A stretch of 64,000 nucleotides of DNA from Sulfurifustis variabilis (GTDB lineage: Bacteria; Pseudomonadota; Gammaproteobacteria; Acidiferrobacterales; Sulfurifustaceae): assembly GCF_002355415.1 (NCBI RefSeq), contig NZ_AP014936.1, positions 3,341,126-3,405,125 on the forward strand. Direction: 5' to 3'. The notes beneath the pieces were generated by a model. It was not told the DNA's origin. It made no database searches and saw only the letters and a program-made list of their open reading frames with translations. A program made the translations under genes and the position numbers. The first letter of the stretch is position 1. Each line of letters begins with the position of its first letter. Below, piece by piece: positions 1-19,258 of this stretch.

Positions 1-725
1 TCCATGATGGAATCGTCACGGCCGCTATAGCCGACTACCACGAGTCCGAAGCGCCGGCAGGAGTCGATGAGGATTTGCCTCAGCCGTTCGTCTTGGTGGC
101 GCAGTTCGTCGCCAGTATTCTTTAAGCGGCGCGACCGAAAATCCCCATGCAGTTTGACCTCCACGGGCCAGCGTCCTTGCGTAATGCATTGCGCTGCCAA
201 GTCCGGCGCGTCAAGGGCCGCACAAGTCAGCGCCCCCGTTCCGTCGTACACCTTGGCACAGCCATCAGCCATGAGTGGATCGAAGTTCGTAGTCCACACA
301 AGGCGGGTGAGTTGCGCACGCATTAGTGTCGCGAGAGCGAGGTGACCATAGGAAGGCTTCGCCCCGGCCATCTTGGCATCCAAATAGGCGCGCCGGTCGA
401 CTTCGGCCGGATAGGTCGCCTCGAAAAGCGCGGCATATTCTTCCGGCGAACCTGGCGGCGGGAAGTTCTTTGTCGAATCGATATGAGCTTGCAACTGAGC
501 GCGGATCGCCGAATTCGAGAGATCCGCGACTGACTGCGGCGAGACTCGGCGTTGGCTGATATACAACTGTTGCTTGAACTCCCACACCATGTCCGACGCA
601 GTTGGTATACCGGCTGACGCCGATGCTCCAGCACCGAGTAACCACATCAGGTTTTCTGCGCGCAATGAAAAGCGCCGGGCGAAATCATCAGCGCTAATCT
701 CAGGTAAAGTGGTCTTGTTATCCAT
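1..725 (-). CDS. SIR2-like (sirtuin fold) protein, C-terminus beyond the window
   Basis: I translated this reading frame directly because it has no stop before the window edge; 241 residues are visible. It begins MDNKTTLPEI. Sirtuin landmarks are the NAD-binding loop LLGAGASASAGIP (residues about 29-41), TTNFDPLM (about 147-154), VKLHGDFR, and VVVGYSGRDDSIM near the cut end. SIR2-like domains in bacterial defence proteins usually deplete NAD+ during infection rather than deacetylate; that role is inferred here. The gene lies 82 bases after the DUF1998 helicase stop, on the same strand, so it may be the last gene of the same operon or a separate defence gene. No good Shine-Dalgarno precedes the ATG at 725. 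The partner or effector domain that normally follows the SIR2 domain lies outside the window. Confidence 0.8.
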   Translation of the reverse strand, partial: MDNKTTLPEISADDFARRFSLRAENLMWLLGAGASASAGIPTASDMVWEFKQQLYISQRRVSPQSVADLSNSAIRAQLQAHIDSTKNFPPPGSPEEYAALFEATYPAEVDRRAYLDAKMAGAKPSYGHLALATLMRAQLTRLVWTTNFDPLMADGCAKVYDGTGALTCAALDAPDLAAQCITQGRWPVEVKLHGDFRSRRLKNTGDELRHQDERLRQILIDSCRRFGLVVVGYSGRDDSIM

Positions 726-807
726 GGGTGGCTGAAAGGAGCTGGAGTTCAGCGATTTTTCTATGGCCGTTTCGGAGGTCTGTACGCCAATACATGCTCG
801 TTGCCTG

Positions 808-3800
808 TCAGAACGGCCTTCTTAGCACTTCAAAGATCGACTTAAACGTAACGTGACAACCAGCTGCTACAGCCTGCGCATATGCCCCGGCGAGCTGAGG
901 ACCCAAGCGGTTTCGATCGGTATCCCACAGCGGGTGCGTGATAATCTCAACCTGATTCCCGCGGCGGCCTGCTTGAAGACCCCCATACGTAAGGCGCTGC
1001 CAGCCGGGCATCGCTGCGAAGTACGGTCCGGCAGCTGACGCGTCAATCCCTTGCCAGTAGGGCACCGAGAAGTCGATCTGAGCGTTTGGGTCCAACGCCA
1101 ATCGAGCCAGATCTAGACCCAAGCGCCAGTCAAGAATGTTGTGGTACGCGAGATTGCTGAAATCGCGGAGACAGTCGGGGCATGACGTCTGGCAAATACC
1201 AGAGTGCACTGCAGTGACCAGCGGTCCGTAGAACGTGTTGCTCGTCTGGCCAACGACGAAACGCAAGAGACTCTCAGCTTCGGTTGGGCTACCGAAGTAC
1301 GAACTGTATCCAGCACCATTCTCCAGGCTGTCTGAGATGAAAATCTGGCCAATAACTTGCCCATTCGCGTCCTGCATCACGCGTAAACCAACCTTAAGTT
1401 CTCGCTCATGGATATCCAGCCGTACCGCCGCCGCTCGCCGGAGCAGGAAGCCCAAAGAATACAGCGCCGCGCGGCCTTCAACCCGAAGCGGCATGGCACT
1501 GACACCTACCGGCCATGTTCGGATACCGAGCACAAGAACATCGGTAGGTTTGACGGAGGCGAGAGCGCGGCGGTCAACTGCTCCTCCGGGGGCGAGGGGA
1601 ACATTATTGATGCCGATTTTCGCCAGGGCTTCCCGTGTGACCCATGTTTCTCCTTGGGCGAGCTTTTCAAAGTCAAACTGACGCCCTTCGTTGTCGTTGA
1701 TAACGTAAACCGTGTCTTGGCCGCTCCAGACCTCGAAGTTTGCAACTGGTGTCATCGGAACCGGTGTAACACCGACTTTCGGACGCGATGCCCGCGCAGT
1801 CCATTCGAATACGCCGTCGAAGTCGCGGCTTGCTCCAGACCACGTGCGGAACCCTCGCGGCTGCGAGAGGCGTACCAGGTCGTAGTCGGGCGGTGCCGCA
1901 CCACAGACCGGGCAGGCTGGTGCCGGGTTTTGCGAACCGTCAACCGCTTGACACCGCCGGCATAATCCAACGACCTGAGGCGGGCCAAGTGGATTCGGCT
2001 GCTCGGTGACCGTATTTCCCTGAGGCTGATAGTCGACGACACCAACCGATGTATGAATGAGTCCATCCTTCACCGTTTCAGAGCAAGGTGCAAACTGGCT
2101 GATTGCTATATCGAGTTCGCGATCGACAACGCCCTCTGGCGGCCATTCGTAGGCTGTGCCGGGCCTCTCATGGAAGAGGTAGCGAACGCGCGTCGGGAAC
2201 CCGAACATCGGCAGTATGCCGGCGTTTGCGAGCCGCTCACTTAACGATCTCTGCGGGAGCCTTGGGTCAGTTGCAGCTGCCGTCACTCGCGCCACGAGCT
2301 GATTCTGAATGAAACTGATCAAGTCGGGCCGCTGTGCCTGCAACTGCGGCGTCGTGTAGGAAAGCAGAACGTCGCACGTTCGCGCAATGGCGGCTGGGTT
2401 GCTTTGAATCCAAGCGCCGACAAGCTGCGCGACGGTCATGCCCGGCGGAGTGCCAGGAACAGGCTGGGCTGGCGGAGCGCCCCACTGCGCAGCATCTCCG
2501 AACTCGCCGTGGACGCTGTCACCACCCGTGGCCGCAAACAGACCGAGAGCGCCAAACGCTTGCCGCAGGACCTCCTTGGCCAGCACGCGCTGTAGGATCA
2601 CCTCCCGGCGCATGTCAACGTATGGCTGCGGAGGAGGATCGGAGGTCATGCGGTCGGGACGCTGGAAATAGTAATCATCGTGGCTGCGGCCCCGGCATAA
2701 CGTCAGTGCTACCGAAAGGCCAGCACCCCGCCGGCCTGCGCGGCCGACGCGCTGCTGGTAGTTGAAGCGCATCGGCGGCATGTTCGCCATCATCACGGCA
2801 AGCAACGAGCCGATATCGACGCCTGCCTCCATTGTTGTGGTCACGCTAAGGAGGTCAATCGCGTCCGTAATTGGGATCTCATCGGGGGGTGGGAGGCAGA
2901 TGTCTTGGAAGAGCCGCTGGCGCTTCCTTCCTTCGTTCTTGTTTGTTTGCCCCGTGAGTTCCTCGCAGTTCAGGCGGAACAGCGGGCCCGCCTGGGTTGC
3001 GAGATAGCTGTAGTAATCAGGTGAGACCTGTGCCGCCGCCATTGGCTGGGGCGGCCCGAGCGGCGTATTGCAGTCCGTACAAACGCCGCCGGATGGGTGG
3101 AGGTGGATGCGGCGGCACTGACCGCATTCGTAGTAGGACGGGCCTGGGCGCGCGAGGCAGAGGTTCTGGACCATGAGCACGTGCTGGGCAAGCACGCCTG
3201 CGCCATTGAGATAAGTCAAAACATCGGCAGCAAAGGTCTGAGGTGTTTGGCCATGCTGTTGGGCGACGGCTGCGAGATACTGGGCGACGTACCCAGGTGG
3301 ATTAGGCTGGCTAGCGGCGCCATGAGTTGAGAGGCGCCGCCGCGCGCCGAGCAGTCGAATCACGCCATCGGCGGCCTCTTGCACGAGAGGGTTAGGGGCT
3401 GGAGCGCCGATCCGGTCAGTCGTTGCGTACGCAATTCGCAGCGATTCAAGGCTGCGCCGCCCAGAAGCGAAAATGACATCCATCACCTCAAGGAGCGACT
3501 GATCTTGAATCCGCCGCAGGTGATCTCGCTGTGGCTGCGTAAGCTGCGCCCCTCTAGCCTGCGGCACAGATCCTGGTGGTCCCCAGACATACAAATCTCG
3601 CCAGCTCCCGGTCTGCTGCCGCGGGTCCGTCCAGAGCACGTCTTGTATAAATCCGCCTGGGTTCATCCCGCGAGCCAGGAGCTGCGCCGAGGCATCAGCT
3701 GCAAGTTGCGCTACATGAAACGGACCCTGAACTGCGCGAGTCAGGATGCGCTGCGCAGCCTGCTGGTACGTTAGCCCCGGATAGTTAGGGCACGCCTGTT

Positions 3801-6336
3801 GAGCAGTCACCGGGTTTGCGGCACCTAAGAGAATCGCCGACTCCGCTGTGTGCGTGCTTGCGAATGTAGTTGCTAGCGCCTGCTGTTCCGGCGGCAGCAC
3901 CTGTCCAGCGAGTTGCGCCGCGAACGCTTGCGCGCCGGCGCCTTGCACTGCGATCGCCTGGGTAATCGCTTGGCGCAGCGCGTCGCGGTAGTGAGAAAAG
4001 CGCATGCCCGCTGAAAGCTTGGCCGCGTCCTGCCGGCTGTCCGAAAAAACCACGAGCTTGCGCGACTGGCTCGCTCCCGCGCCAGCGATCCGGCGGAGAA
4101 GCGAATCAGATAGCACTTGGGCAATCTTCTGAAAACCGGTCCGCAGGGTGCGAATGGGGGAACCAATCTGGCGGCGCGACCAATCCGCGTCGCAGCGCGG
4201 GCAGCGCGCAGGGTACGCCTGGTTCGCGCTGTCGGCCGCCGGTGGGTTCGGGCCCTGCATCGCCGGCACGAAGTAGAGATAGCCAGGACCCCCGAGAACT
4301 ACCTTGCCATCAGCGGGTGTGAACCGGGCTGGCCTCCAGAACCGTTGCACCCCCTCTTGTGTCCACTGCGGCGATGCCGGCGCCATTCCAGGACCAGCCG
4401 GCCAGTAAACAGCGTACCGAAGATAGTCGCGGTCGAGCGATGCCATGTCCGGAGATGCTTCAAGGTCGGGGTGATCAGGGCTGAGGTACCACTCGTTAGG
4501 ATTTAGGCCGGTATCGCGCCGGTATCCCCCGAAGAATATCTCGCCGCACGCCTCGCAATAGAGCAACTCGAGAACTCTAGAGCCACACCCGCACGTTAGC
4601 GTCGGGACGTAGTGCAGCGTACCGGCCGGGCAGGCGCCGTTTCGCGGCGGCGCCTGCGTGCAGCTCGCGTTTGTGCAGACCCATAGTCCTTGAAGGTTGC
4701 GGAAAACCATGTGTGCCCGCACGGGCAAAGGCGCTGTGCCGGCGGCACCTCGCGCCGCAGATAGGCCAGCAAGCAACCCCTCAAGTGCCTCGAGGCGATC
4801 CGCTGGTGCGAGCGCGGGGAACATGGCTGCCGCGATTTGTTCAGGAAACCGGGGCTCGATCTGGGGTGTCTGAGCTGGACCGGTGGAACATGCCAATCGC
4901 AACGCATCTGCGGCCATGATGTGCCCGAGTGCAGATTCGAGAACTCCCTCGGGAGTCGCGCCGGGACCGATTGCGGTTGCTCCGATAGCTGCATGAAACG
5001 CGTGCGCCGCTGCTGTTATCGGCACCTGCGACGCTCGCAGATCCTGCCGGAGTTGGCGCAGCGCAGTTGCGCTGGCGCGCACGGGGGCAAACGCGCCGGG
5101 GTTGAGGGGTTGCGTGGCGCCCCCTACTACCCGAAAACGATTCTGATCGCGCCCGAAAAACGCCTCAAGGTACTGGAGACCGGCTGCACCGCTGGCTACC
5201 GAGGCGCTCGACGCGATGATGCGGAGCTGGTCTGAGTCTGGCGACAGGCCGAATCGGTCAAGCAAAACTCTGATGAGGTACGCAACCTCAGTTCCGGGCG
5301 TGCCGCGGTAAGTGTGTAGCTCGTCGACGACGAGATGGAATATATGAGAGGCATCTGCCTGGAGCCACTGTCTCGTCTGGTCGAAGATTGGTGATTCAAC
5401 TCCGCGCATCAACATGATGTTGAGCATTGAGTAGTTCGTGATCAGGATGTCTGGCGGGTGATCCTGCATATCCCACCGCGACCACATCTCGCCGCCGTCC
5501 ATACTGGGGAAGAAGCGTGCGGCGGGCGATCCAACAACGAGCTGCGCGTCGCGCTCGATGCTTGCGAGTTCGGTACGTAACCTGGCTTCTGCGTTCTTCG
5601 TGGGAATACCGGATACAGGAGTACGCCCAGTGTAACGCCCGAAGTAAAAGCGATTGCCTCCACGCTGTACTTGGAGCCACGTGCGGGCTTGAGCGCTATC
5701 CAAGCCGTCACGGAGTCGTGCGAGCTGATCTTCAACGAGTGCGTTGAGTGGATAGAGAATCAGCGCCCGCACGGCCGCAGGCCGCACCGCCGGGTCCTCG
5801 TGGGCGCGCTGGGGAATCCGCGGCGCCCACCTTCTCCTGCTCCCCTGCATAGTCCAATGATTCCACCAGTCCCACTGCGCTGGCCGCGGCCCGGGAGCCC
5901 CCCACGCAGACGATTCGCGAATCAACGCCGCGGCGATGGGCAAGAGGAAACACTCAGTCTTTCCTGAACCAGTTCCCGTTGTGACAACAACATCACGTCC
6001 CTGCACTACCGATTCCTGAAAGACCTCCCGCTGGTGCGCGTACAGTTCGCGCGAAGGCGGGAAGAGACCCTGCGACACGAAGCCAACCAGATCCGCCAGC
6101 GCGCCGGGTGCCCAGGACGCCCCGAGCAAGGATTGTGCTACCTGCTGGAATGTTTGCCCGCAGGTCTGATAGGCGGGCACCGGCTCAATCAGCGGGTACC
6201 GATATAGCCGCCCATCAGCATCGAGCAGCTGGCGGCGCTCGGCGACGAGATCCGGGTATCTGAGGTCGAAGGGGCTATCGAGGTACCTTAGATACGTGTC
6301 GCGCAGACTTTCGAAGATCGCAAGCGGGTTACTCAT
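808..6336 (-). CDS. Giant DEAD/DEAH helicase with DUF1998-type C-terminus (DruE-like)
   Basis: This 1842-residue protein has a superfamily 2 helicase core. Landmarks are a Q-motif-like YAHQREV (about residue 99), Walker A TGTGSGKTE (119-127), a DELH box (338-341), motif V TTTMEAGVDIG (about 1167) and motif VI QQRVGRAGR (about 1194). About 830 residues are inserted between the two halves of the core. Cysteine clusters that look zinc-binding occur near residues 554-597, 712-715, 1071-1089 and 1459-1478. The end (about 1620-1750) carries a DUF1998-like region with CQTSCPDC and a WRLGLDL helix. Length, core and DUF1998 tail fit DruE of Druantia systems better than the shorter, split DrmA/DrmB of DISARM. 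The ATG overlaps the stop of the preceding gene by 4 bases (6333-6336). It is expected to be the motor of the system, translocating on DNA; substrate and trigger are unknown. Confidence 0.85.
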   Translation of the reverse strand: MSNPLAIFESLRDTYLRYLDSPFDLRYPDLVAERRQLLDADGRLYRYPLIEPVPAYQTCGQTFQQVAQSLLGASWAPGALADLVGFVSQGLFPPSRELYAHQREVFQESVVQGRDVVVTTGTGSGKTECFLLPIAAALIRESSAWGAPGPRPAQWDWWNHWTMQGSRRRWAPRIPQRAHEDPAVRPAAVRALILYPLNALVEDQLARLRDGLDSAQARTWLQVQRGGNRFYFGRYTGRTPVSGIPTKNAEARLRTELASIERDAQLVVGSPAARFFPSMDGGEMWSRWDMQDHPPDILITNYSMLNIMLMRGVESPIFDQTRQWLQADASHIFHLVVDELHTYRGTPGTEVAYLIRVLLDRFGLSPDSDQLRIIASSASVASGAAGLQYLEAFFGRDQNRFRVVGGATQPLNPGAFAPVRASATALRQLRQDLRASQVPITAAAHAFHAAIGATAIGPGATPEGVLESALGHIMAADALRLACSTGPAQTPQIEPRFPEQIAAAMFPALAPADRLEALEGLLAGLSAARGAAGTAPLPVRAHMVFRNLQGLWVCTNASCTQAPPRNGACPAGTLHYVPTLTCGCGSRVLELLYCEACGEIFFGGYRRDTGLNPNEWYLSPDHPDLEASPDMASLDRDYLRYAVYWPAGPGMAPASPQWTQEGVQRFWRPARFTPADGKVVLGGPGYLYFVPAMQGPNPPAADSANQAYPARCPRCDADWSRRQIGSPIRTLRTGFQKIAQVLSDSLLRRIAGAGASQSRKLVVFSDSRQDAAKLSAGMRFSHYRDALRQAITQAIAVQGAGAQAFAAQLAGQVLPPEQQALATTFASTHTAESAILLGAANPVTAQQACPNYPGLTYQQAAQRILTRAVQGPFHVAQLAADASAQLLARGMNPGGFIQDVLWTDPRQQTGSWRDLYVWGPPGSVPQARGAQLTQPQRDHLRRIQDQSLLEVMDVIFASGRRSLESLRIAYATTDRIGAPAPNPLVQEAADGVIRLLGARRRLSTHGAASQPNPPGYVAQYLAAVAQQHGQTPQTFAADVLTYLNGAGVLAQHVLMVQNLCLARPGPSYYECGQCRRIHLHPSGGVCTDCNTPLGPPQPMAAAQVSPDYYSYLATQAGPLFRLNCEELTGQTNKNEGRKRQRLFQDICLPPPDEIPITDAIDLLSVTTTMEAGVDIGSLLAVMMANMPPMRFNYQQRVGRAGRRGAGLSVALTLCRGRSHDDYYFQRPDRMTSDPPPQPYVDMRREVILQRVLAKEVLRQAFGALGLFAATGGDSVHGEFGDAAQWGAPPAQPVPGTPPGMTVAQLVGAWIQSNPAAIARTCDVLLSYTTPQLQAQRPDLISFIQNQLVARVTAAATDPRLPQRSLSERLANAGILPMFGFPTRVRYLFHERPGTAYEWPPEGVVDRELDIAISQFAPCSETVKDGLIHTSVGVVDYQPQGNTVTEQPNPLGPPQVVGLCRRCQAVDGSQNPAPACPVCGAAPPDYDLVRLSQPRGFRTWSGASRDFDGVFEWTARASRPKVGVTPVPMTPVANFEVWSGQDTVYVINDNEGRQFDFEKLAQGETWVTREALAKIGINNVPLAPGGAVDRRALASVKPTDVLVLGIRTWPVGVSAMPLRVEGRAALYSLGFLLRRAAAVRLDIHERELKVGLRVMQDANGQVIGQIFISDSLENGAGYSSYFGSPTEAESLLRFVVGQTSNTFYGPLVTAVHSGICQTSCPDCLRDFSNLAYHNILDWRLGLDLARLALDPNAQIDFSVPYWQGIDASAAGPYFAAMPGWQRLTYGGLQAGRRGNQVEIITHPLWDTDRNRLGPQLAGAYAQAVAAGCHVTFKSIFEVLRRPF

Positions 6337-7289
6337 CGGAGCTCCTGTCGCAGTAATCCCGATGCGAGCCTGGCGATAACCTCGGGCACATCGGAGTAGT
6401 GAAGAAAGCCGGTAGCGCCTTGCCCTCCCTCATAGGCAGGCGGCAATCCTGAACAGAGAACGAGCGCTCGCTCCAAAAGGAAGGGCGGGCGGCAACTTGC
6501 GGGCACTGAAAGCCGGCGGTTAACAACAGCATAATGAAGAATCCGCCGGCGCCGGCGCTTTAGGACGATGTACTTCCCCACTTGGCCTGGCACCTGATAA
6601 GCCATGCCCCTGGAGCAGAGTAACACTTGGCGCTGGTGCCGAAGCGAGAAGCGAAAGAGACCACCGGAGCTGGAAAGAGCTTCATCGCGTGTCGCAGCTC
6701 TCCACCGGAGACTGGAAGCCGACCATTGTTCGATCCTCCACTCAGAACCGAACGGTAATTCGACCCGGCGGCGCACCGCGGGATCATCCACAGGCGGCAG
6801 GCTCATCAGGATGGCCGCCGGCGCATCGGGTTGCAAGAACAGCCCAGCGCGTTGCGCTATATCGGCCAGCGTGTCTGGATCGCTCGCGACAATCCGGAAT
6901 TGATCCGGGCACGCAGCAGATGGCAGCGTTTCGAACTTGTTCGGGGTAGCTGCGTTTCCAAGCCGTTGGAGGAGTGCGGGCGACCGTGCTCCGGCGAGTA
7001 CGCCAAGCCACCCCTTATCATTTCGTGTCACGGCAAGACTCGGTGGTACCACCCTCCACTCGTTATCGCCGCCAGCTCCCCCAAAGAACTCGGCGTGGCC
7101 GAGCCGCTGCAGGTTAAGACGCAGGGCTTGGTAGAGCGGAAGGGCGTACTGGTCAGTGCCCTCTTCGCTCCCGTCTGGCAGATCGCCATTACTGTCGGCC
7201 ATGTGGAGTTCTTCGACCGCGGTGCGGAACTGCTGCCAGGAACCCTGCCGGCGTGCGGACATCCAGAGAAGGAGATCGTTTGCGCTCAT
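6333..7289 (-). CDS. Unrecognised 318-residue protein of the Druantia-like operon (DruG position)
   Basis: I do not recognise a domain. The start was set at 7289 because an AGAGG Shine-Dalgarno lies 8 bases upstream and the ATG makes a 4-base overlap with the stop of the gene before it; a start at 7337 would overlap that gene by 52 bases. The protein starts MSANDLLLWMSARRQGSWQQ, is soluble with no signal peptide or membrane segment, and has a mixed alpha/beta look. A very basic patch KRRRRR lies near residue 250, and a C-terminal third contains FLLERALVLCSGLPP and GFLHYSDVPEVIARLASGLL. It sits between the membrane-anchored protein and the helicase, the position taken by druG in Druantia type II as I recall it. 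An adaptor role linking the two neighbours is inference only. Confidence 0.7.
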   Translation of the reverse strand: MSANDLLLWMSARRQGSWQQFRTAVEELHMADSNGDLPDGSEEGTDQYALPLYQALRLNLQRLGHAEFFGGAGGDNEWRVVPPSLAVTRNDKGWLGVLAGARSPALLQRLGNAATPNKFETLPSAACPDQFRIVASDPDTLADIAQRAGLFLQPDAPAAILMSLPPVDDPAVRRRVELPFGSEWRIEQWSASSLRWRAATRDEALSSSGGLFRFSLRHQRQVLLCSRGMAYQVPGQVGKYIVLKRRRRRILHYAVVNRRLSVPASCRPPFLLERALVLCSGLPPAYEGGQGATGFLHYSDVPEVIARLASGLLRQELR

Positions 7290-9370
7290 CGCATACGCCT
7301 CTGAATCGCTCTCGCGTGCTGCTTGTAGACTTGCCACAACGAAGCCACCTCAGTTCCAGGCGGTTCGGTCGCAAGACCTTTTCGGCCAGCAGCTAGGATT
7401 GCAGACGTCCATGCTTTGATACGCCTCGCGTGCTCCCGGCCAGCGCACTGCGGCCGCTGGATCATGTTTGCCTGCCGAGGCGACTCCTGCCCGCCAGCAG
7501 GGCGTAGGTCACCGATGAGCAGCACGCGGGCGATGCGCTTATCGCACCGGAGCGTATCGGCTGGTATCGCCCAAACCGGGTCGAACCAAGGAAATCCGAT
7601 GCACGTCTGGGCGCGGACATCACCGCGGACATCGCACGCGTAAATCTGGCCGGGCTCCGCGCCAATAAGAATCGAGTTAGACGCCGGCACCACAACCCCG
7701 TGGCGCCCTGCCGGTCCCGGCCCAAGGCGCGGCGGCAGAACCAGTACGCCACAGATAGCTGGGTGGACCCGCTCGCCGTCCGCGCTGAAATCCCCCATCG
7801 ACCAGGTGTATGCATCCCAAACTTCCCAATCCTCGGCTCCCTCACGAATTGAATAGGAGCGCGATGCGCTTGCGCACCAGACTTGGTGTTGGCCCGGGAG
7901 GTCCCATCCTGGCGCGGCATATCCGCCGTCTGGGCCCAGTGTCGCCTCACGTCCGTCGATCACCACGTTATGGATCGCCTCGACATCGCCGCGAAGGCGG
8001 ATACGGGGCGGGTAACCGCGGAGCCATGTCTGGCGTTCGAGCCGGATACCACCCTCGAGGACGACCTCGACGTTGGCCAGGGGCCGGAGCACGTCGAGAA
8101 TTTCTCCTTGCTGGCTCGCTGCGACGGGCGTTCGAGGCACCACACCGCGAAGACCGATCCAGCCCTGGGGTATTCCAGTTGTGGTATCCAGCACGTGAGG
8201 TTCTGGGCTCCCCGTTTGTTCGACTGCGCGCCTGACGTCTTGAAGGCGTTCCTCGGTGCAAAGAACGACGTGCTGTTCTCCGAGGATCAGCCGCGGCGTG
8301 CTGACAAAACCATTGAGGTCGCCATGCCTGCAGAGCACGAATAACTCGCGCCCGCTGAGTGACCATCGAACGATTCGACCATCAGCAAGGTGTCCTTCCC
8401 ACTCGATCCCTCGCCGCAGCAAAGTTCCCATGTCCGGCAGAATAACGTCCTGATACCAATCGTCCTGTAGCGAGATCAGCTCAGGCGGGTCTCCCGACCC
8501 AGAGACAGCGATCTCACCGGGGAGTGCCGGTGCCCGGCGCGGCAACAAGGAGATATTGCAGAAGCCGGCTTTCTCGAAGATAAGGCGCACTTCGATTGGC
8601 AGCGCTCGCTCGCGCGCCACCCGCTCTTCCGAATCTTGGGGAGTCTCTCTTGGCGCAGCCGGCGCGCGAACTACTGGACGATACTGTCGGGGAGACCGCA
8701 AGCGCTTCGGCGACTCCTTGGATGGCTCTGGAGTCGCGACCGGTGCGCTAACCGTGATATCTCGAGGTGCAACCGTTATCGGCACAGCTGCAACGGAATC
8801 AGGCTTCTCAGCTGGCGGTGGTTCGCTGGCGCCACCTCCACCGCCCGGAGCTGCGGGGTTAACAACTTTGCGTAATTCGTCACTCTCTGGCGGAACCTTC
8901 TCGCCGCTCGCTACGGGAATGGCTGGCTCTATTACAGTTTCAGGCCTAGCGCGGGGCAGGTCGTCGGCAGGTCGTGGAGGAACTCTTGGCTCGCCTGCGG
9001 ATTCTTGCGACAAGACCGACGGTTCTGCGGGAATCTCTCCGGGTTCCGCCACGGCTTGGGGCGCTATAGGCGGCGTCCCTGCCTCGGTCACGGGAAACGC
9101 ATGGCCTGCGGTGTCTTCTCCAGCGTGTCGTGAATCCGCCGCTGTTTTCGCGGCTGAAGAAGATGAGTCGACCGGACCAGGAGCCGTGGAATCTACAGGT
9201 GGCATACGTAAAGGCTTCCCATCGCCACTAGGTCGCTCCGGCTGTTCTTCAAGACCCCCCTGGGCCTCCCGGCTCCGGGATTCGCGGAACGCGCGCAGAA
9301 TAAGCACCGCGATCGCAAGTGCGAGCACGAAAGAGCAGATAACAAGCAATAGAGTTATCGTTGCGGACAT
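7286..9370 (-). CDS. Membrane-anchored 694-residue protein with disordered linker (DruF position)
   Basis: Residues about 5-27 (ITLLLVICSFVLALAIAVLI) form one transmembrane segment next to an arginine-rich stretch, so a cytoplasmic C-terminal body on a membrane anchor is likely. Residues about 30-255 are rich in Pro, Glu, Ser and Ala and look disordered. From about 260 to the end the sequence is globular and beta-rich (for example VEVVLEGGIRLERQTWLRGYPPR, shown here only as a composition example of alternating strands). I recognise no catalytic motif. The start has a GAGGAGA sequence just before the ATG. It follows the HhH-GPD gene by 35 bases and overlaps the next gene by 4 bases. Its place in the operon matches druF of Druantia type II by memory; a role tethering the helicase complex to the inner membrane is inferred. 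Confidence 0.72.
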   Translation of the reverse strand: MSATITLLLVICSFVLALAIAVLILRAFRESRSREAQGGLEEQPERPSGDGKPLRMPPVDSTAPGPVDSSSSAAKTAADSRHAGEDTAGHAFPVTEAGTPPIAPQAVAEPGEIPAEPSVLSQESAGEPRVPPRPADDLPRARPETVIEPAIPVASGEKVPPESDELRKVVNPAAPGGGGGASEPPPAEKPDSVAAVPITVAPRDITVSAPVATPEPSKESPKRLRSPRQYRPVVRAPAAPRETPQDSEERVARERALPIEVRLIFEKAGFCNISLLPRRAPALPGEIAVSGSGDPPELISLQDDWYQDVILPDMGTLLRRGIEWEGHLADGRIVRWSLSGRELFVLCRHGDLNGFVSTPRLILGEQHVVLCTEERLQDVRRAVEQTGSPEPHVLDTTTGIPQGWIGLRGVVPRTPVAASQQGEILDVLRPLANVEVVLEGGIRLERQTWLRGYPPRIRLRGDVEAIHNVVIDGREATLGPDGGYAAPGWDLPGQHQVWCASASRSYSIREGAEDWEVWDAYTWSMGDFSADGERVHPAICGVLVLPPRLGPGPAGRHGVVVPASNSILIGAEPGQIYACDVRGDVRAQTCIGFPWFDPVWAIPADTLRCDKRIARVLLIGDLRPAGGQESPRQANMIQRPQCAGREHARRIKAWTSAILAAGRKGLATEPPGTEVASLWQVYKQHARAIQRRMR

Positions 9371-9405
9371 TCTCCTCTCGTCACTCCTCCCTGCGATCTC
9401 TTGCT

Positions 9406-10218
9406 CTACTTCAAAGGACGCTCAGCCATCAGGTGCGCGCCTCTATAGTTGGCCGGCAGAGTCCGAAGGCGCTTTGTTTGTGCTGCCAAGTCAAACGGCC
9501 CAGTCGCGGCTTTGCGAGCCGCGCGAGGAAGTCCCTTCATCGCGCATATTGACCGTATCGGACAGCGAGGACATTGCGGTGCAACGGGCAGGCAAGTGCG
9601 CTGCCCATGGATCACCAGGTTCACGTGCAGGACTCGCCGGCGAGCAGCTGGAACGGCTGCCTGGAGTGCATCATGCAAGTAACGCCGCCTGTAGATGGCG
9701 GAGGAACGAAGGACTCCAACGCGCTTTAGAATCCGAAACGTATTCCCGTCCACGGGGAACACGTTTCGTCCAAGACTGTAGAGTAGGACGCAACGGGCCC
9801 CCTTCCACGAAAGTCCGGGAAGCCGCGTGAGGATCTGTTCAGCTTCCTCGTCGGTCATGTCCCGGAGTAGGTTCAGAGACAGCTCGCCGGCAATTCGGCG
9901 GACTTCAGTGACGAGGCGTTTGAGTGTGCGTGCCTTCTGCCGGTGGAGGCCTCCCTCGCGGAGGACTCTGGCGACTTGCGGAACCGGCGCGCGTTCGAGT
10001 GCCTCCCAGCTTGGATAAGTTGTCTTAAGCCTGTCCCAGGTCGCTCCGAAGCGAGCCAAATCCGTCTGGAAGCTGAGGATGATGTAAATCGCTTCATCCA
10101 GCGGATCCTCCTTGTTACCGAGAACGGCTTCAGGGGTCCCATACGCCTTCTCCAGACGGCGATCCAGCTCATCGAGACGATCTCTAGCACCGCGCGCCAG
10201 CGGCGAAGTGATTGTCAT
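9406..10218 (-). CDS. HhH-GPD DNA glycosylase of the endonuclease III superfamily, [4Fe-4S] type
   Basis: The 270-residue protein has the helix-hairpin-helix LPGLSWKGA (133-141) with the catalytic lysine of bifunctional glycosylase/AP lyases (K139), the catalytic aspartate in FPVDGNT (D157), and a canonical C-X6-C-X2-C-X5-C iron-sulfur motif (C209, C216, C219, C225). The run RCVLLYSLGRNVFPVDGN recalls the same segment of plant DEMETER/ROS1 5-methylcytosine glycosylases more than standard Nth; this is a memory-based comparison. Its ATG overlaps the methyltransferase stop by 4 bases, so the two are co-translated. Two roles are plausible: repairing T:G mismatches made when 5-methylcytosine deaminates, as the Mig.MthI type does, or excising a modified base in DNA. 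It is not part of the Druantia sets I remember. Confidence 0.88.
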   Translation of the reverse strand: MTITSPLARGARDRLDELDRRLEKAYGTPEAVLGNKEDPLDEAIYIILSFQTDLARFGATWDRLKTTYPSWEALERAPVPQVARVLREGGLHRQKARTLKRLVTEVRRIAGELSLNLLRDMTDEEAEQILTRLPGLSWKGARCVLLYSLGRNVFPVDGNTFRILKRVGVLRSSAIYRRRYLHDALQAAVPAARRRVLHVNLVIHGQRTCLPVAPQCPRCPIRSICAMKGLPRAARKAATGPFDLAAQTKRLRTLPANYRGAHLMAERPLK

Positions 10219-11420
10219 TGCTGGCCACCCTTGGGATCAATTTCTAGAACCTCGCCCAATACGCGCTCGATCATGAGGGGAGGCACTGAGTTGCCGATCA
10301 TTTCATAGACGCTGCGCCGGCATGCCAGTTCGGACGGAAATGTGATCCGGTCTGGTATACCTTGCAGTCGAGCGTATTCGCGCACTGACAAAGATCGCTC
10401 TTGCGCGTAGTGATACACACAGTCGTATTTGGTCGAGAGTGCCGTGGACGGGGCATCCGGATGGAGACGCCGGTACGCGGAGTCGTAGCGTCGCGAGAGG
10501 CCATTGAGGTGCTCTGCGGGTATCGCGCGCGCGCAACCTCCTGGGGGAATGTGTCTGAGGCGACTTACTGTCTCTGCGTTGACCGCTGGCGTACGAGTAT
10601 CGCGGAGCTTCGGCGGGGCACCCTTGCGCACCCAGCGCTGGAACACCGTCTTTGGTCCACGCGCGTAAGTTCTCTCTTGCTCCGGCTCGCCGGGACCTAG
10701 CACCGGCATGTCGGACAGTGCTTGCGATGCAGACGTAAGCGAGCCATCGTCGGGATCTCTGAGCGCTTTAAGATACGTCTCCAACTCTGCAGGAACTGCC
10801 CCACCGTGCCTTACGGCGGAGAACAGGGGCACCAAGTCTGGGCCTGGCTCTGGCAGGCTCTCGTCTCCGGAACCGTACCGAACACCTAAGATGAGTATTC
10901 GCCGCCGGGCCTGCGGCGTACCGAAGAGAGCTGCATCATAGATGCGATACTCAACACGGTAGCGCAGTCTTCGTGCAGGACGCTCCAGCCGGTCAAGGAG
11001 AGTGGCAAGGGTCTTGCCATCACGGTGCCTGATCAGATCCGGAACGTTCTCGATGAGAAACAGGCGCGGCTTGAGCAGACCGATGTACTCTGGCATCGCT
11101 GCCAGAACACGGTTGTGCCCGTTGCGGCCATCATGGTGACCGTTCCTCAGTTGGCTGAACCCCTTGCAAGGAGGTCCAGCAGCAAGAAGGTCTATCTCGC
11201 CTATCTTCCGCCTGTCCGCAGCAACAGCCTTCCTCCCGCTCTCACTCAACAGATTGCACGTAACCGCTACCTCTTTCGGGAAATTGTGGTTGTAGATGGC
11301 AACCGCCTCCTGCCAAGAGTCGTACGCTTTGGCAATATGAAAGCCGAGCGCGCGGAGCCCGATCCCGATACCGCCGAGACCCGCGCATAGTTCGACAGCA
11401 ATTCCCTTAGCAGCAGTCAT
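10215..11420 (-). CDS. C5-cytosine DNA methyltransferase (DruM-like)
   Basis: The 401-residue enzyme transfers a methyl group from SAM to C5 of cytosine. The ordered motifs are all present: motif I ELCAGLGGIGIG (10-21), motif IV GPPCKGFSQ with catalytic C85, motif VI ENV (124-126), motif VIII QARRR (170-174), motif IX RLHPDAPSTAL, and motif X YEMIGNSVPPLM near the C-terminus. The target sequence cannot be read from the protein. No type II restriction enzyme lies beside it; instead it heads an operon with an HhH-GPD glycosylase and a DUF1998 helicase. It probably marks self DNA for that system, as druM is thought to do. The start is the ATG at 11420; only a weak ribosome site precedes it. An 84-base gap separates it from the AbiEii gene, and I see no clear promoter there. 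Confidence 0.93.
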   Translation of the reverse strand: MTAAKGIAVELCAGLGGIGIGLRALGFHIAKAYDSWQEAVAIYNHNFPKEVAVTCNLLSESGRKAVAADRRKIGEIDLLAAGPPCKGFSQLRNGHHDGRNGHNRVLAAMPEYIGLLKPRLFLIENVPDLIRHRDGKTLATLLDRLERPARRLRYRVEYRIYDAALFGTPQARRRILILGVRYGSGDESLPEPGPDLVPLFSAVRHGGAVPAELETYLKALRDPDDGSLTSASQALSDMPVLGPGEPEQERTYARGPKTVFQRWVRKGAPPKLRDTRTPAVNAETVSRLRHIPPGGCARAIPAEHLNGLSRRYDSAYRRLHPDAPSTALSTKYDCVYHYAQERSLSVREYARLQGIPDRITFPSELACRRSVYEMIGNSVPPLMIERVLGEVLEIDPKGGQQ

Positions 11421-11504
11421 TCACACTTTGTCAGTAAAGTACGACGTGCACATTCTTAACCCACGAGCCGCAATGACCCTGGTTATCCATTACGCCTAGA
11501 ATCT

Positions 11505-12338
11505 TCATATTGGCTTGCTCACCATCTTCCGAAACGTCTCCACCCACTCCCGCCACGTCTGCTCAAACTCTGGCAGCTCCTTCAGCATCGGGCCCAGCCG
11601 GTCAACCCAGGCGTCTCGATTCCATTCGCGGAGATTCTCCGAAATCAGTCCCTCAAGATCGGGTTCAATATCACGCACGCGGCACTTCTCCCGAAAGAGC
11701 GGCTCAAGTTCTTCCCACGCGTAGCGCTCTCCCGACCGGCACAGGATGTACCAGAGGTCGTACAGGTCTCGCGGGCGCGGCCACTTCTTCTGCTGTTGCA
11801 GCAAGGCGCGCAGCTTCTCGGCGATGATTTCCAGCTTGCTATAGGCGGCGATTTTGAATGGCGGAAGATCCGGGTACGCCGGTGTCACCGAACGTTCTTC
11901 GACGCCTGTAAGGATTGGCTCGTCAAACGTGAGTTGCACCTTAACGTGCGGCAGTGCCTGCCGCCGCGCCCCGCCACGAAGATACTGAACGGGAATCTCG
12001 ATCTGAAAGTCACCGGGTACCGTCCGCGGTTCCTTGAGCGTCAGACGGGTGCCGGATTCATCCCCGATCCACGCAGCGACCTGCGCCAGCAATTCCAAAG
12101 ACGTTTGGAGATTGCTGCCCTGCGGCTCGCAACTGAAATCGAGGTCCTCGGAAAAACGATAGCCCGCGTAGTAACAGTGGCGCAGGCAGGTACCGCCCTT
12201 GAACGCCCATCCCTTCGGCGCCAGGTCCGGGCGCGTCAGCCCGTAGAGTAGCCAGAGGATAACGTAGTCCTTTTCGGTCTGGTCGAAACGCAGCCCCTCT
12301 TTCTCAGCGAACTGGTGCAACGCCGCGGTGCTGATCAT
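11505..12338 (-). CDS. abiEii: AbiEii/AbiGii-family nucleotidyltransferase toxin
   Basis: The 277-residue protein has the DUF1814 (nucleotidyltransferase AbiEii) pattern: WAFKGGTCLR around residues 43-52, the metal-binding SEDLDFS (about 64-70), a KLEIIAEKLRALL helix, and RPRDLYDLWYIL with the conserved Arg-Asp. These proteins are the toxins of type IV toxin-antitoxin systems that cause abortive infection; related enzymes such as MenT3 transfer nucleotides to tRNA. The start overlaps the antitoxin stop by 4 bases (12335-12338), the usual AbiE layout, which keeps toxin synthesis tied to antitoxin synthesis. No key residue appears missing, so it is probably active. Confidence 0.9.
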   Translation of the reverse strand: MISTAALHQFAEKEGLRFDQTEKDYVILWLLYGLTRPDLAPKGWAFKGGTCLRHCYYAGYRFSEDLDFSCEPQGSNLQTSLELLAQVAAWIGDESGTRLTLKEPRTVPGDFQIEIPVQYLRGGARRQALPHVKVQLTFDEPILTGVEERSVTPAYPDLPPFKIAAYSKLEIIAEKLRALLQQQKKWPRPRDLYDLWYILCRSGERYAWEELEPLFREKCRVRDIEPDLEGLISENLREWNRDAWVDRLGPMLKELPEFEQTWREWVETFRKMVSKPI

Positions 12339-13144
12339 CTCTTGATCTCGACGTTCACGAGCAATCCCCAGCGGCGGTTGTACTTGCCGCGCTTGGGCAG
12401 CGTAGGGTCTAGGGGCGAGAAGCCGGGTGCGATGGGTACGGCCTTGCGCAGCGCTTCGGGGTCGCCGAGCTTGAGCGTCTCCATCAAGAAGCCCAGGCGT
12501 TTGGCGACAGCGCTGTTACCGATCTTGCCAGCGTAGTGGCGTAGCTTCGTTTCATCGAGCTCCGACCAGTTGCCGGCGAGCGCCTTGGCGATTTCATCCA
12601 CCCCGCCTACGTACTGCGGGAGGTCCAGACCGTCGATGATGGTCTTTTCCTTGTCCGTTACTTGAAACGGCTGTTCATCGATCCAGTCCTTAACCACGGC
12701 GAAGAACTTGGCGGGCTTGAGCGAGATGAGCTTGAAGTTGATCCCCAGCACCTGCTTGGGGGGGCGGCGCACGGGGTGATTGGTTGCGACGAAGACCGTG
12801 CGAGGCAGTTGTTCGGTCAGGCCGTGATGGTTGAGCGCCGACCAGTAGGCGATCGCCGCCGGCGACACAAGCTCCATGGCCACGATGAATTCATGTAGCT
12901 GCGGCGTGCGGGCCTCGCCAGAGGAAAGCGGGATGACGGCGAAGCGGCCCCGCCGGATGCGCTTGATCCAGCCCTTTGTCTGGAGCTTTTCGAGAAACTG
13001 CCGAGTAGGATCTTCGGACTTGTGTCCCAAGACTTCGCGCGCATTGGCGATCGAAAACGTGGCCCGGGATCCGACCACCGCTAGAAACCGTGCCTCGGAC
13101 CTACCCAAGGGACTTCTTGTTATATTGCGTGCGTCGTTTGTCAT
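12335..13144 (-). CDS. abiEi: AbiEi-family antitoxin and transcriptional repressor
   Basis: The 269-residue protein starts MTNDARNITR. Residues about 20-80 form a winged-helix domain (FSIANAREVLGH, then GWIKRIRRGRFAVIPL), followed by the AbiEi C-terminal antitoxin domain with SPAAIAYWSALNHHGLTEQ and DKEKTIIDGLDLP. AbiEi proteins bind inverted repeats in their own promoter and counter the toxin by a type IV mechanism, acting on the toxin's process or target rather than by direct binding. It is the first gene of the pair and overlaps the toxin gene by 4 bases. A promoter with a 9-base inverted repeat lies at its 5' end and fits autoregulation. Confidence 0.88.
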   Translation of the reverse strand: MTNDARNITRSPLGRSEARFLAVVGSRATFSIANAREVLGHKSEDPTRQFLEKLQTKGWIKRIRRGRFAVIPLSSGEARTPQLHEFIVAMELVSPAAIAYWSALNHHGLTEQLPRTVFVATNHPVRRPPKQVLGINFKLISLKPAKFFAVVKDWIDEQPFQVTDKEKTIIDGLDLPQYVGGVDEIAKALAGNWSELDETKLRHYAGKIGNSAVAKRLGFLMETLKLGDPEALRKAVPIAPGFSPLDPTLPKRGKYNRRWGLLVNVEIKR

Positions 13145-13197
13145 CTGTGCAGGTTACCTACGGCCTACAAAATATAACATTTGTGCAAGAAATCCAA
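13118..13197 (-). promoter_or_regulatory. AbiE promoter with candidate operator repeats
   Basis: On the minus strand a -35 box TTGGAT (13197-13192), a 17-base spacer and a -10 box TATTTT (13174-13169) precede abiEi. The 9-base sequence AATATAACA at 13171-13179 (plus strand), overlapping the -10, has a perfect inverted copy TGTTATATT at 13118-13126, just inside the gene, 44 bases away. The upstream copy also sits in a small palindrome ACAAA...TTTGT. AbiEi repressors are known to bind such repeats; this assignment rests on sequence only. Confidence 0.45.
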
Positions 13198-13999
13198 GGA
13201 CTTGTTTCTGGCGGTTCGTGGCCTTGCCCGCCCCTTTGCGGCAAATAAAGCAGCGCGGGGCAGTCCAGCGCAGCCGCACTTCGAACAGGATTGGGGGGTG
13301 CCCGAGCTTATGAAGCCGGTGCCCGGACAGCCGCAGATCACGTCATGCAGCGCTGCTTGCCGGTCCGCACCAGACCGTGGTGCGCCGTTCTCGGCATCGG
13401 ACACTATGCAGACTTCTACGTCCTGGCAGGTTTAGGAGAGGCGCATGGCGGATAACAAGACCAAGACCACCACTTATGAGCATGTGTAAACCTTTTTCGC
13501 CCAGCCGAAAAACGACCTCGAGCACGCACGCCGCTACTCAGCGACCGGAACTACCAATCCGACCGGTGGCTCAGCGATTGTCTCTCGTCTGGATGCGACA
13601 GATAGATCCAGAGCAGTCGTTGCGTTTGTAGCGAGTTGGGGTAGGCTTTCGAGAACCCATGAGACACCGCGAAATCATCGAGGGCGGGCGCGCGGATCTC
13701 GAGCTGGAGCTGCTCAAAGCCATGTTCACGCCTGGCGGCGAACACCGAGTGCGTGAAATCGAGGCCCGTCTTGCGCCCCGTGGCCGAGGCAAGCTTCGCC
13801 TCGTTTCAGATGTGACTCGCGAGCGCGCCTCGCCCGAGACCGGTGCCAATCAAAGCGCCAATCAAGGCCCGCGCACAGACTGAGCGCGAGGTTTCACTAC
13901 AGGGCAGCGAGTCCGACAGCGAGCGCAGGGCGATGGCCGACAAGCAAATCAGTCGCCTTACGGCCCGAAAGCGGACGTGCCATTCGGTATATCTTTGGA
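13198..13999. other. About 0.8 kb without a convincing gene; possible gene relic
   Basis: No reading frame here resembles a known protein. One point stands out: at 13445 a good ribosome site (AGGAG, 6 bases away) precedes an ATG opening a 14-residue frame, MADNKTKTTTYEHV, that ends at TAA. The same frame then stays open for about 90 more codons after that stop (TFFAQPKNDLEHARRYSATG...). A single C-to-T change of CAA to TAA would explain this, so it may be a decayed gene. The minus strand has a 79-codon GTG-start frame with several cysteines that I could not assign. Confidence 0.3.
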
Positions 14000-16900
14000 T
14001 CACCGCGTCGGTCCGAGTGCCATCGCCTCGATGTCGTTCTCGCCAACTTCGGATGCTACCTTCACGCTCAACTCCCTTTTCAAAATGGCGAGATCAAAGA
14101 GAAAGTCCGGCTCGCCCTTGCCCTTCCAGATAGCTGGAACAAGCCAATACGCGCCGAGCTCGTTATATCTGCCGAGGAAACGGACGAGGTTAACATCGGA
14201 CTCCGCGTGCATCGTGTTGATGCGGGCTGCAATCATGAACGGCTGCCCGCCAATCAACTCGACCTTGGGTGGCAGCCGCGAGGTAATCAGCACCCGATAG
14301 TGGGCGGGTTTCTCGGCAGAGATACCGCGGACTATTGCGACGTAGATATCTTCCTGCCTGTCCTCTTTCCCGAAACGCTCTCGCCAACGCTCAAAGATCT
14401 TCCGCGCAGCATCGGCGTCGGTAAATAGCAAGGCGATTGCGGGCGAATAGGATGGCCCCCAGTCGGCGAATGCGGTTCCCGTCCAGCCAGCGCGGTTCCA
14501 AAGATGGACGTCGATGATCGAGCGGACTCTGAGATCGCGATGATCCTTGGGCAGGGCCAATGTCATTAGCTCACCGGCCGGCGTATGTCTCTCCTCCGCT
14601 TCATTCTTGGAAGATTCGAGCTTGCGGCGAACGATGTTGGGGCGCGACGCCTGAGGTGGGAATGTGGTCTCGACAAGGCTAGTCCAGTCGTTCAGCCGCG
14701 ATATGGTCTTGCCGAGAAAGCGCTGACGACTATTCCCAACTACGATGACCATCGCGATGCGGTCGAGTACCGCGTCGTCCTCGTGGAAGCGCTTCAAGGC
14801 GTCCTTCATGTCCTGGACGAAGCAAGTGGCGGCAAAAATTGACGCCGATAGAGCAGCTAGCATCCGGTGGACCTCGCCCTGCTGTCCATAGCTGGAGGGC
14901 AGCCGGCCGGCGGGCCAGCGAACGGTCGCCGTCAGTCGCTCTTCGTCTAGCGTAAAGTCAGGCTCTTTCGTGGCTGTATTCTCCTCGATCCTGACGGTGA
15001 ACATTTCCGCGTGCGGCTGGGCGTCAAGATCGATGGTGGTCGCAAACAGTGCCTCGATTGATCCGATCACCGCCTCTGCTGCGAGAATCGCTGCTATGGA
15101 ACCTTGATGATGCACCTCGATCCGTATGCCCAGCACGCTCGACACGTAGATCTGCTGTCCCGGCTCATTGAAAATGACCGGACTACGCAGATTGTCCGAT
15201 GCGGGCTGGCTCGCGAGCAGCGTAAACAGCTCGGCAACTTTCTCGGGCGTCTCTTCAACCGGAATCGACCCATCTTCACGGAGCAAAGGCTCATAACCGA
15301 GCGCGTAGAGTAACGATGTACGGGCTAGATGTAGGCCGAGGCGATCGAGGACGTCGGGAAGCCGGTCAGCCTGCTTGAGTTCCAGCAGGCTGAAATTCAG
15401 GACTTGACTGCCAAGCACACCGTCGAACTCTTGCAGACGCTTTGCCGCGTGCTCTTTCGACGCCTCGTCGAGGGGCAGCGCCGCGACGCAACCTCGAACC
15501 AGTCGAATTGCTTCCAGGGCGTCGGGCAAATGGCGAAGCTCAATGGCGATCCAAGCGAGCAGCATGAGTGTAGGAACGACAGTGGCGGGAAGGTGACTAT
15601 CCTCCTCGGCTTCGATGAAGATCGATGCGAGCGCAAAGATGCAGCTGGCGCGGGCTGCCCAGAGCAGGCCAGCGCTGCGATACGCAAGTGAAAGCAATCG
15701 CATGGCCTCAATAAAAGAGCTAGCGTATTCCTTTTTGGTCAGTTGATGTGCCGCTCTGCCAAGCAAGCGAATCATTTCGAAACAATCATCGAAGTCTAGC
15801 TGCTCGGCTCGCTTGAGGAGTACGAGCGCGCCCTGAGCCTCGCTTGTGCGTTCAGAGACAAACTGCGCAACATCGTCTATGAGGCGAGCGTAACCGGGAT
15901 CATCACCCGTAACGTTGCCAAACACTTCGATCATCCCGATCAGTCGCTCGGCGGCAAACTCCCCAAGACCCCTCGCCCGCCGGAGGACATCGGAGAATTG
16001 CGGCCAGAGAGCGTTAAGGGCTGCCCGATCACCTGCGATCAAAGCTTGATTTGCCTGTATCACGAGAAGCGAGGTTCGCGCCTCCAAGGCATTGTTCGGC
16101 CTTTCCACGTCGGCCGCCATCACCTCAAGTCGGTGGATTAGCCGTGCAACGCGCTCGCTTAGCTTCGCTTCGTCGGAGGTGAGATGCCCATGGATGACTG
16201 CGTTGAAAAGAAGCTGAGCAAGATTGCACAAGAATTCGAGGTTCCTCGCATGATCGGTTTCGAGTGCGAGCGTCTCGAACGCGTCATAGCTGTTATTGAG
16301 CTGTGCAATATCGTCGAACCACCAGAAGGCAGTCCAAATCCACTCGTACCTCGCCTCAAGCCGTTGCCGGTAGGTGCCGTCCTCGTCGGCGAGGCGGACG
16401 GCGCGCGCGAACCGCCCGTCGGTCTCGGGCCGAGGACGTTCGAGGTTGCGCGAGAGCCTAGCTGCGACCAAAGCTTCGGTCACCCGCTGCATTTCCATGC
16501 CTGCGAAGGCCTGCGGGTCGCCGAGTGCCTTCTCGACATCGTCGAGCTGTTGCGCACGTGAGTAGTCAGACGGGCCGAGGCGGCGTGTCTCTGCGACCTC
16601 CTGGCCGATACCCAGATAATTGAACGCGAGGTCTTTGCGGTCGCCTTCAATAACCTGTTCGACAATCCAGGTCCGGTCAAGAATGGTAACGGTGACGCCG
16701 TATTGCCGAGTCAGTTCGTCCTCGACGCGAGCGCGATCCTTGGCCCGGGCGAACCGGGCGGTAACGCAGAAGATCTTTTGATACTCGCGTCCGGTTCCAA
16801 CGATGCCGGCGACGTCGCTACGTACCTTCTCAACCCATTTCTTCTTAGCGCTAAAGGCGAAAGCCCACCGCTCGCGACCGGAATTAGCCTCGCCGACATA

Positions 16901-17206: not shown

Positions 17207-17447
17207 TCATTTTGTCCTAACACTTCCCTTAGTCGTTAACAATAGTAGAGCAGTGTTGCAGTCTCGCCTAGAACTCACCTGCCTGCCGGTACGCCTGACC
17301 CACCTGATTCGACTGCTATCAATGGTGTTCGCCTCCGACAACCGATGGGCCCGGTTCAAATCTGGTTCCAGACTTTGCTACGGTCTGCAAGCCGCCACAT
17401 GAGCCGGCGGCGACGTATTGGCCATCGCCGCCGTGCTCGATCTTTGG

Positions 17448-19228: not shown

Positions 19229-19258
19229 ATCTTGCTTCGAGTGCCTGCGCCATGTCAA
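19229..19258 (-). promoter_or_regulatory. Promoter-like sequence facing the inner integrase
   Basis: On the minus strand a consensus -35 TTGACA (19258-19253) is followed after 18 bases by CAAGAT (19234-19229), three of six matches to the -10 consensus. A transcript from here would have a leader of about 670 bases before the integrase ATG at 18554. The evidence is sequence only and the -10 is weak. Confidence 0.25.

Follow-up and report, generated by a model that had tools for sequence, protein, structure and literature searches.

A DNA glycosylase gene coupled to the C5 methyltransferase of a Druantia-related operon in Sulfurifustis variabilis, with a probable role in repair of deaminated 5-methylcytosine

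In the available part of the account given by the authors of PADLOC, Druantia type IV comprises DruE and DruF with DruL and is without DruM and DruG, while type II requires DruM (PMC8565338). Druantia types I and II are placed by Bell et al., in the part of that work available, in a fourth CoCoNuT group whose members encode inactivated homologues of the GTPase CnuB (PMC12458937). Here we describe a five-gene operon at positions 808–11420 of a 64,000-nucleotide stretch of Sulfurifustis variabilis DNA (contig NZ_AP014936.1, positions 3,341,126 to 3,405,125; hereafter the window), in which a Druantia core is preceded by genes for a C5-cytosine DNA methyltransferase and a DNA glycosylase of the HhH-GPD family. 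The host genome is a single contig of 3.96 Mb. We propose that the glycosylase probably repairs the 5-methylcytosine-to-thymine deamination caused by the operon's own methyltransferase, and hence that it is a substitute for the very-short-patch repair endonuclease Vsr and not a new effector.

All five genes are read in the same direction on the minus strand, as proposed in the initial annotation of this DNA, and the four-base ATGA overlaps that it had claimed at three junctions are present at 10215–10218, 7286–7289 and 6333–6336; a gap of 35 nucleotides separates the HhH-GPD gene from druF. The methyltransferase (10215–11420; 401 residues) matches PF00145 (E=1.3e-48) and the PADLOC model DruM2 (PDLC00033, E=2.2e-55), with a slightly better match to the generic MTase_II model (PDLC03234, E=1.4e-59). 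It is followed by the glycosylase (9406–10218; 270 residues), which is endonuclease III (EndoIII)-like with a four-cysteine motif of the [4Fe-4S] type and scores 39.6 bits against PF00730 (cut-off 26.2). The DruF-like membrane-anchored protein (7286–9370; 694 residues) has a single N-terminal hydrophobic stretch, as read by eye, and gives weak and partial matches to DruF2 (E=2e-10) and DruF4 (E=5.5e-10). The 318-residue DruL-like protein (6333–7289), for which we take the ATG at 7289 as the start in place of a GTG 16 codons earlier that begins the mechanical open reading frame (ORF), matches DruL4 (PDLC00057) over nearly its full length (E=7.9e-26). The last gene (808–6336; 1,842 residues) encodes a DruE helicase of the YprA/DUF1998 family that matches PF00270 and PF00271 and scores 1,761 bits with DruE4 (residues 2–1841) and 1,601 bits with DruE2. 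Its assignment as a DUF1998 helicase holds in that the DruE models match from end to end, but is borderline for Pfam PF09369 (DUF1998/MZB), which scores 18.7 bits on the helicase (cut-off 24.2) and rises above the cut-off, to 24.7 bits, when neighbours in the frame are included.

These matches modify the earlier view of a type II-like druM-druF-druG-druE operon. The matches to DruM2, DruE and, weakly and partially, DruF agree with it, but the druG label was dropped from the 318-residue protein, for which the PADLOC match is DruL4; no DruG-named model was among the PADLOC matches at E≤0.1, the presence of DruG in the model set being unconfirmed. The core is that of Druantia but is closer to PADLOC type IV than to type II. 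Judged by these matches, the locus appears to sit between the two, with a type IV-like DruF-DruL-DruE core and an added DruM-like methyltransferase, and we file it as a type IV variant with a methyltransferase because of the DruM2 match of its first gene. The 318-residue protein also matches positions 766–1010 of the 1,011-residue DruF2 model, and therefore types II and IV may differ partly through gene splitting. An AlphaFold2 model of DruL has a mean predicted local distance difference test (pLDDT) score of 91, and no match to it was found in the PDB at E≤0.001.

The occurrence of the glycosylase was surveyed in 89 DruE loci, consisting of the window, four loci from 398 genomes of the same phylum, four plasmid loci, and the best 80 of 333 DruE relatives from a collection of ∼85,000 species. 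Every ORF of at least 60 residues was searched with iterated profiles from the window's own proteins and with extra profiles for Vsr and a downstream PD-(D/E)XK nuclease; the window itself was profiled over bases 1–20000 and the region beyond druE was inspected on its own. The DruF profile retrieved 80 ORFs from the locus set. PF00145 is matched by each of the 43 methyltransferase ORFs and PF03852, at E≤0.001, by each of the 24 Vsr ORFs. Locus counts are not equivalent to independent events because some loci are close kin (the DruE proteins of L011, L032 and L039, for instance, are almost identical).

HhH-GPD ORFs are present in 12 of the 89 loci (the window, L015, L017, L018, L021, L022, L029, L035, L047, L049, L077 and L089). 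In six of these the gene lies directly between the methyltransferase and druF, namely in the window and in loci of Planctomycetota (L015), Gemmatimonadota (L018), Pseudomonadota (L035), Myxococcota (L049) and Rhodothermota (L077), nearly all of which are metagenome-assembled genomes (MAGs), and the junctions of the methyltransferase and glycosylase genes range from a 4-base overlap to a 10-nucleotide gap. The window methyltransferase is 66–78% identical to those of the other five. Across these six operons (15 non-independent pairs) the methyltransferase and glycosylase identities co-vary (Spearman 0.84), and both co-vary with those of DruE (0.76 and 0.84, respectively), as common descent of the operon would predict. 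The coupling goes furthest in a Nitrospira MAG (Nitrospirota, L029), where the methyltransferase and the HhH-GPD domain form one ORF of 552 residues (L029:5173-6831). A methyltransferase-glycosylase pair lies behind druE on the opposite strand in L047, and L089 has, likewise behind druE, a divergent methyltransferase next to a glycosylase of another type, which is MutY/Mig-like. This distribution marks the HhH-GPD gene as recurrent and argues that it is not a chance passenger. It does not, as first suggested, make the glycosylase a fixed part of a Druantia subtype, as 77 of the 89 loci are without it.

Of those 77 loci, 24 contain Vsr, a T:G mismatch endonuclease that guards sites of 5-methylcytosine, which in 23 of them lies within 6 kb of the druF-druL-druE block; glycosylase and Vsr do not occur together within that distance in any of the 89 loci. 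A common, longer gene order, methyltransferase-druF-druL-druE-PD-(D/E)XK-Vsr, is found in L011, L032, L036, L039, L041, L044, L045, L048, L056 and L068, with the methyltransferase of L056 cut by the contig end, and is joined by L033, the upstream side of which is cut. In these 11 loci Vsr follows druE and the PD-(D/E)XK gene, and in ten it lies within 12 nucleotides or overlaps when the longest ORF starts are used, the exception being L032, in which the Vsr ORF starts 1.2 kb away. The tight six-gene operon with Vsr (L011, L036, L039, L041, L044, L045, L048 and L068) spans several phyla. The PD-(D/E)XK proteins of L035 and L016 match PADLOC DruK. One or other repair gene is present within 6 kb in 31 of 42 methyltransferase loci versus 4 of 47 loci without a methyltransferase (Fisher p=1.6e-10; L021, L022, L033 and L092 are the four), with the fused ORF of L029 counted as both methyltransferase and glycosylase. 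Restricting the comparison to the 50 loci for which 3 kb is available to either side, the window included, gives 21 of 29 versus 2 of 21 (p=1e-5). In the clade of the window's DruE, 17 of 20 loci carry one of the two repair genes: the glycosylase in 11, of which two are broken copies, and Vsr in 6, of which the one in L027 is a 64-residue fragment. The other three (L016, L031 and L038) have neither gene; their upstream sides are cut by a contig end and no Vsr or glycosylase was found in their downstream flanks of 3.6–10 kb. On the DruE tree, which excludes L026 with its DruE in pieces, parsimony requires three or more switches in the kind of repair gene. No Vsr was found in the host genome of the window by a search that detected it in 5 of 14 control genomes.

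The association with a methyltransferase extends beyond Druantia. When viral contigs were searched with the window-type glycosylase alone, two relatives were found (41% and 38% identity), and in both (L101:59-6572 and L102:6578-12403) the next gene upstream is a C5 methyltransferase. Their neighbours include an unrelated SNF2 helicase and proteins without clear family, among them one of 509–529 residues, together with an MmeI-like gene in L101, and no Druantia gene was seen among the neighbours examined in the stretch read; a further defence locus linked to methylation may be represented here. The methyltransferase of the window, used in turn to scan viral contigs, gave no relative. As a control, the host's remaining three HhH-GPD genes, of which two resemble MutY and Nth on inspection by eye, and four distant relatives had no C5 methyltransferase in the 3.4–3.7 kb fetched. 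Among the 398 genomes of the phylum, the window-type glycosylase was found at E≤1e-25 only in the host and in four genomes of one other genus (E=8e-30 to 7e-27). Plasmids gave no match at 1e-20, and at 1e-8 gave 14 records, one of them unannotated and the others labelled endonuclease III, DNA lyase or HesB, while phages gave six unannotated records (E=8e-12 to 1e-9). On gene context, the glycosylase follows the METHYLTRANSFERASE (the C5 methyltransferase), not Druantia, and belongs to the methylation module.

It could be argued that methyltransferase and glycosylase form an independent module, such as a solitary methyltransferase or the remains of a type II system, with no part in Druantia defence. 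The module has been swapped between closely related operons (the L029 methyltransferase is only 33% identical to that of the window over residues 9–180, and the DruE proteins are 82% identical), and in some relatives the methyltransferase lies behind druE or on the other strand, in L019 with a NotI-like nuclease. Against such independence, the methyltransferase keeps its place immediately ahead of druF, separated by short gaps, in clades further removed (L011, L032, L036, L039, L044, L045 and L048), and the available part of PMC8565338 makes DruM a requisite of type II. We therefore give this explanation little weight.

The best sequence match of the HhH-GPD protein in the PDB is D. radiodurans EndoIII-1 (E=1.1e-27; 32–33% identity). 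The NCBIfam model DR2438 matches at E=5e-32, below its cut-off, and the Endonuclease III (Nth) model TIGR01083 reaches only 58.9 bits against a cut-off of 211.7; ROS1 outscores E. coli EndoIII in the sequence search. An AlphaFold2 model (mean pLDDT 76.5, from a seven-row alignment) fits EndoIII-3 and EndoIII-1 (Z 22–24), ROS1 (Z 21), an EndoIII–DNA complex (Z 21) and 1kea (Z 20), and the substrate cannot be read from the predicted fold alone. Asp157 and Cys209, Cys216, Cys219 and Cys225 are invariant in seven window-type copies, in keeping with the HhH-GPD [4Fe-4S] superfamily, and in the window copy the hairpin reads LPGLSWK in place of LPGVGxK. The fused L029 glycosylase is of another kind, having as best PDB match the thymine-DNA glycosylase Mig.Mth (1kea, E=6.2e-37). 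The glycosylases of L029 and L089, like Mig of pFV1, have tyrosine at the position of the EndoIII lysine; the window has Lys139 and so does not share the Mig-type residue. At least two glycosylase lineages therefore seem to have entered the partnership with a methyltransferase, as sorted by PDB matches and by this lysine or tyrosine position.

The likeness to D. radiodurans EndoIII-1 and EndoIII-3, the best matches in both sequence and structure, would suit a general EndoIII for oxidative damage that hitch-hikes in the operon. The host already has its three other HhH-GPD genes, however, and the tight coupling to the methyltransferase, the fusion in a sister locus, the exchange with Vsr and the spread across phyla all speak against such a passenger, which we regard as very improbable. 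An excision of 5-methylcytosine itself, in the manner of ROS1/DEMETER, is suggested by the rank of ROS1 above E. coli EndoIII in sequence and its high structural rank, but is ranked low because such an enzyme would attack the operon's own methylation. The only PADLOC match of the HhH-GPD protein is to PDLC03398, 'Type II nicking endonuclease' (E=1.3e-9), which we take, from REBASE naming, to be a group of T:G nicking or repair enzymes. A restriction glycosylase label based on this model was rejected, as the Mig-like fused protein of L029 matches it far better (E=1.3e-37).

The Vsr exchange, the methyltransferase-glycosylase fusion and the close coupling of the two genes make repair of the operon's own methylation damage the most likely function of the glycosylase. 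The methyltransferase would mark host sites as 5-methylcytosine, and deamination of 5-methylcytosine to thymine would generate T:G mismatches, from which the glycosylase would remove the thymine, so that base-excision repair could restore C:G; its lysine may also allow it to nick the abasic (AP) site. It would thus do the work of Vsr in sister operons, and be inherited and exchanged together with the methyltransferase. By analogy with restriction-modification, methylation would be the self signal that protects host DNA from DruFLE. The T:G activity of the window's subfamily, which is EndoIII-1-like and keeps the lysine, and the anti-phage activity of the operon are both presumed in this scheme. 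5-Methylcytosine deaminates to thymine faster than cytosine deaminates, giving C-to-T hot spots that Vsr-type enzymes counter, a Vsr-like protein burdens cells without the matching methyltransferase, and vsr genes may sit apart from their methyltransferase or be missing, according to the part of PMC12907096 available. The broken copies in L021 and L022, which lack the N-terminal region and with it the catalytic Asp, fit such a burden: no methyltransferase was found in L022, where 7 kb ahead of druF and 10 kb beyond druE were covered, or in the 4.2 kb upstream in L021, where the downstream side ends after 248 bases. Two cases prove nothing, however.

Several observations weigh against repair of methylation damage. 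In 11 of the 42 loci with a methyltransferase, no glycosylase or Vsr gene lies within 6 kb of the block, which may be explained by vsr genes that lie elsewhere or are missing, as PMC12907096 describes in the part available. Only six independent pairs could be drawn from the DruE tree; about three fit the association and none contradicts it, a result short of significance, and the mutual avoidance of glycosylase and Vsr taken alone is weak (p=0.03 for the 89 loci and 0.08 for the 50). Some Vsr ORFs also match DUF559 (10 of 24) or MTES_1575 (8 of 24), and therefore not all need be true mismatch enzymes; by these family matches some may be nucleases of another kind. The intact glycosylase gene of L017 adjoins a fragment of an N6-methyltransferase, and its C5 methyltransferase is behind druE. 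The EndoIII-type Lys139 is kept in six of the seven window-type copies (Asn in L015), Mig's tyrosine is lacking, and the available part of PMC9268735 describes D. radiodurans EndoIII-1 on thymine glycol and abasic sites with no mention of mismatches.

An alternative is that the glycosylase is itself the effector or a sensor of the defence, excising an unmodified, damaged or phage-hypermodified base from the invader where host DNA, marked by 5-methylcytosine, and phage DNA differ, and leaving AP sites or nicks as an entry point to be exploited by DruE and nucleases. Base-excision restriction enzymes do exist, as stated in the part of PMC10273834 available, and Lys139 would suggest an AP-lyase ability. 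Moreover, the window is without the DruK-like PD-(D/E)XK gene that its close relatives have behind druE, so that something else might cut. Its place is taken by a SIR2 effector gene together with a class I short Argonaute (minus strand; L095:16700-19851, corresponding to window 1–725 and beyond), which start 82 nucleotides behind druE (PADLOC E=1.4e-192 and 7.4e-199), and no PD-(D/E)XK nuclease of this kind was found in the host by a search that had no positive control. The close relatives L015, L029, L035 and L049 nevertheless carry both the glycosylase and a PD-(D/E)XK nuclease gene, other relatives carry Vsr instead, the fused copy in L029 is Mig-like, and the glycosylase family also stands behind C5 methyltransferases outside Druantia. 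An effector role is consequently unlikely, and a role as base-excision sensor equally so. If it were true, excision combined with methylation would be a new kind of modification-dependent defence, and the enzyme would become harmful, and would be inactivated, once the methyltransferase was lost, which would make the pair addictive as well.

The region resembles a defence island. An AbiEii/AbiEi toxin-antitoxin pair (window 11505–13144, minus strand) immediately precedes the operon on its upstream side, and upstream of this pair is a gene for a 1,068-residue protein (14000–17206, minus strand) for which no Pfam, NCBIfam or PADLOC match was found at E≤0.1. Two Integrase_1 genes on the minus strand flank the region on both sides (window 17448–18758 and L095:10906-12111), and a tRNA-Lys gene lies at 21538–21613. 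A comparison limited to window 1–24000 revealed no convincing direct repeat that would mark att sites.

Repair of the operon's own methylation damage by the glycosylase suggests that Druantia systems marked by methylation bring along their own remedy for the mutations that 5-methylcytosine incurs, with at least two solutions, Vsr and an HhH-GPD glycosylase, the latter once as a fusion. It would add gene-context evidence that marking by 5-methylcytosine is a working part of these Druantia systems, would predict a substrate for an uncharacterised glycosylase family, and is a warning that an extra enzyme in a defence operon need not be an effector. The parts are of known kinds and it is their combination that was not found in the literature searched, which yielded no report of Druantia with an HhH-GPD glycosylase, of an HhH-GPD protein with restriction-modification and a cytosine methyltransferase, or of Vsr as a separate gene of such Druantia operons. 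In the available parts of the Druantia-related literature, Vsr appears as a nuclease domain fused to a helicase.

Among described systems, the window resembles Druantia type IV in that genes for DruE4, DruL4 and a DruF-like protein adjoin one another, but adds a C5 methyltransferase and a glycosylase to a type described, in the part of PMC8565338 available, without DruM and DruG. With type II (DruM, DruF, DruG and DruE) it shares a C5 methyltransferase as first gene and the DruF-like and DruE genes, and differs in that its 318-residue protein matches DruL and no DruG-named match was seen. The glycosylase has its closest solved relative by sequence in D. radiodurans EndoIII-1 (DR2438, Z 22), a repair enzyme described on thymine glycol in the part of the source available and not encoded in a methyltransferase operon as far as seen. 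Mig.Mth of plasmid pFV1 is likewise an HhH-GPD thymine/uracil-DNA glycosylase encoded near a C5 methyltransferase, and the L029 copy is Mig-like. However, the pFV1 genes are ∼1.4 kb apart, divergent and accompanied by an NgoPII-type restriction enzyme, and the window enzyme is EndoIII-1-like with lysine in place of tyrosine. Vsr, found alongside the methyltransferase in relatives but in no locus that also has the glycosylase, is the counterpart in the sister operons, although it is an endonuclease rather than a glycosylase and is usually encoded at the other end of the operon.

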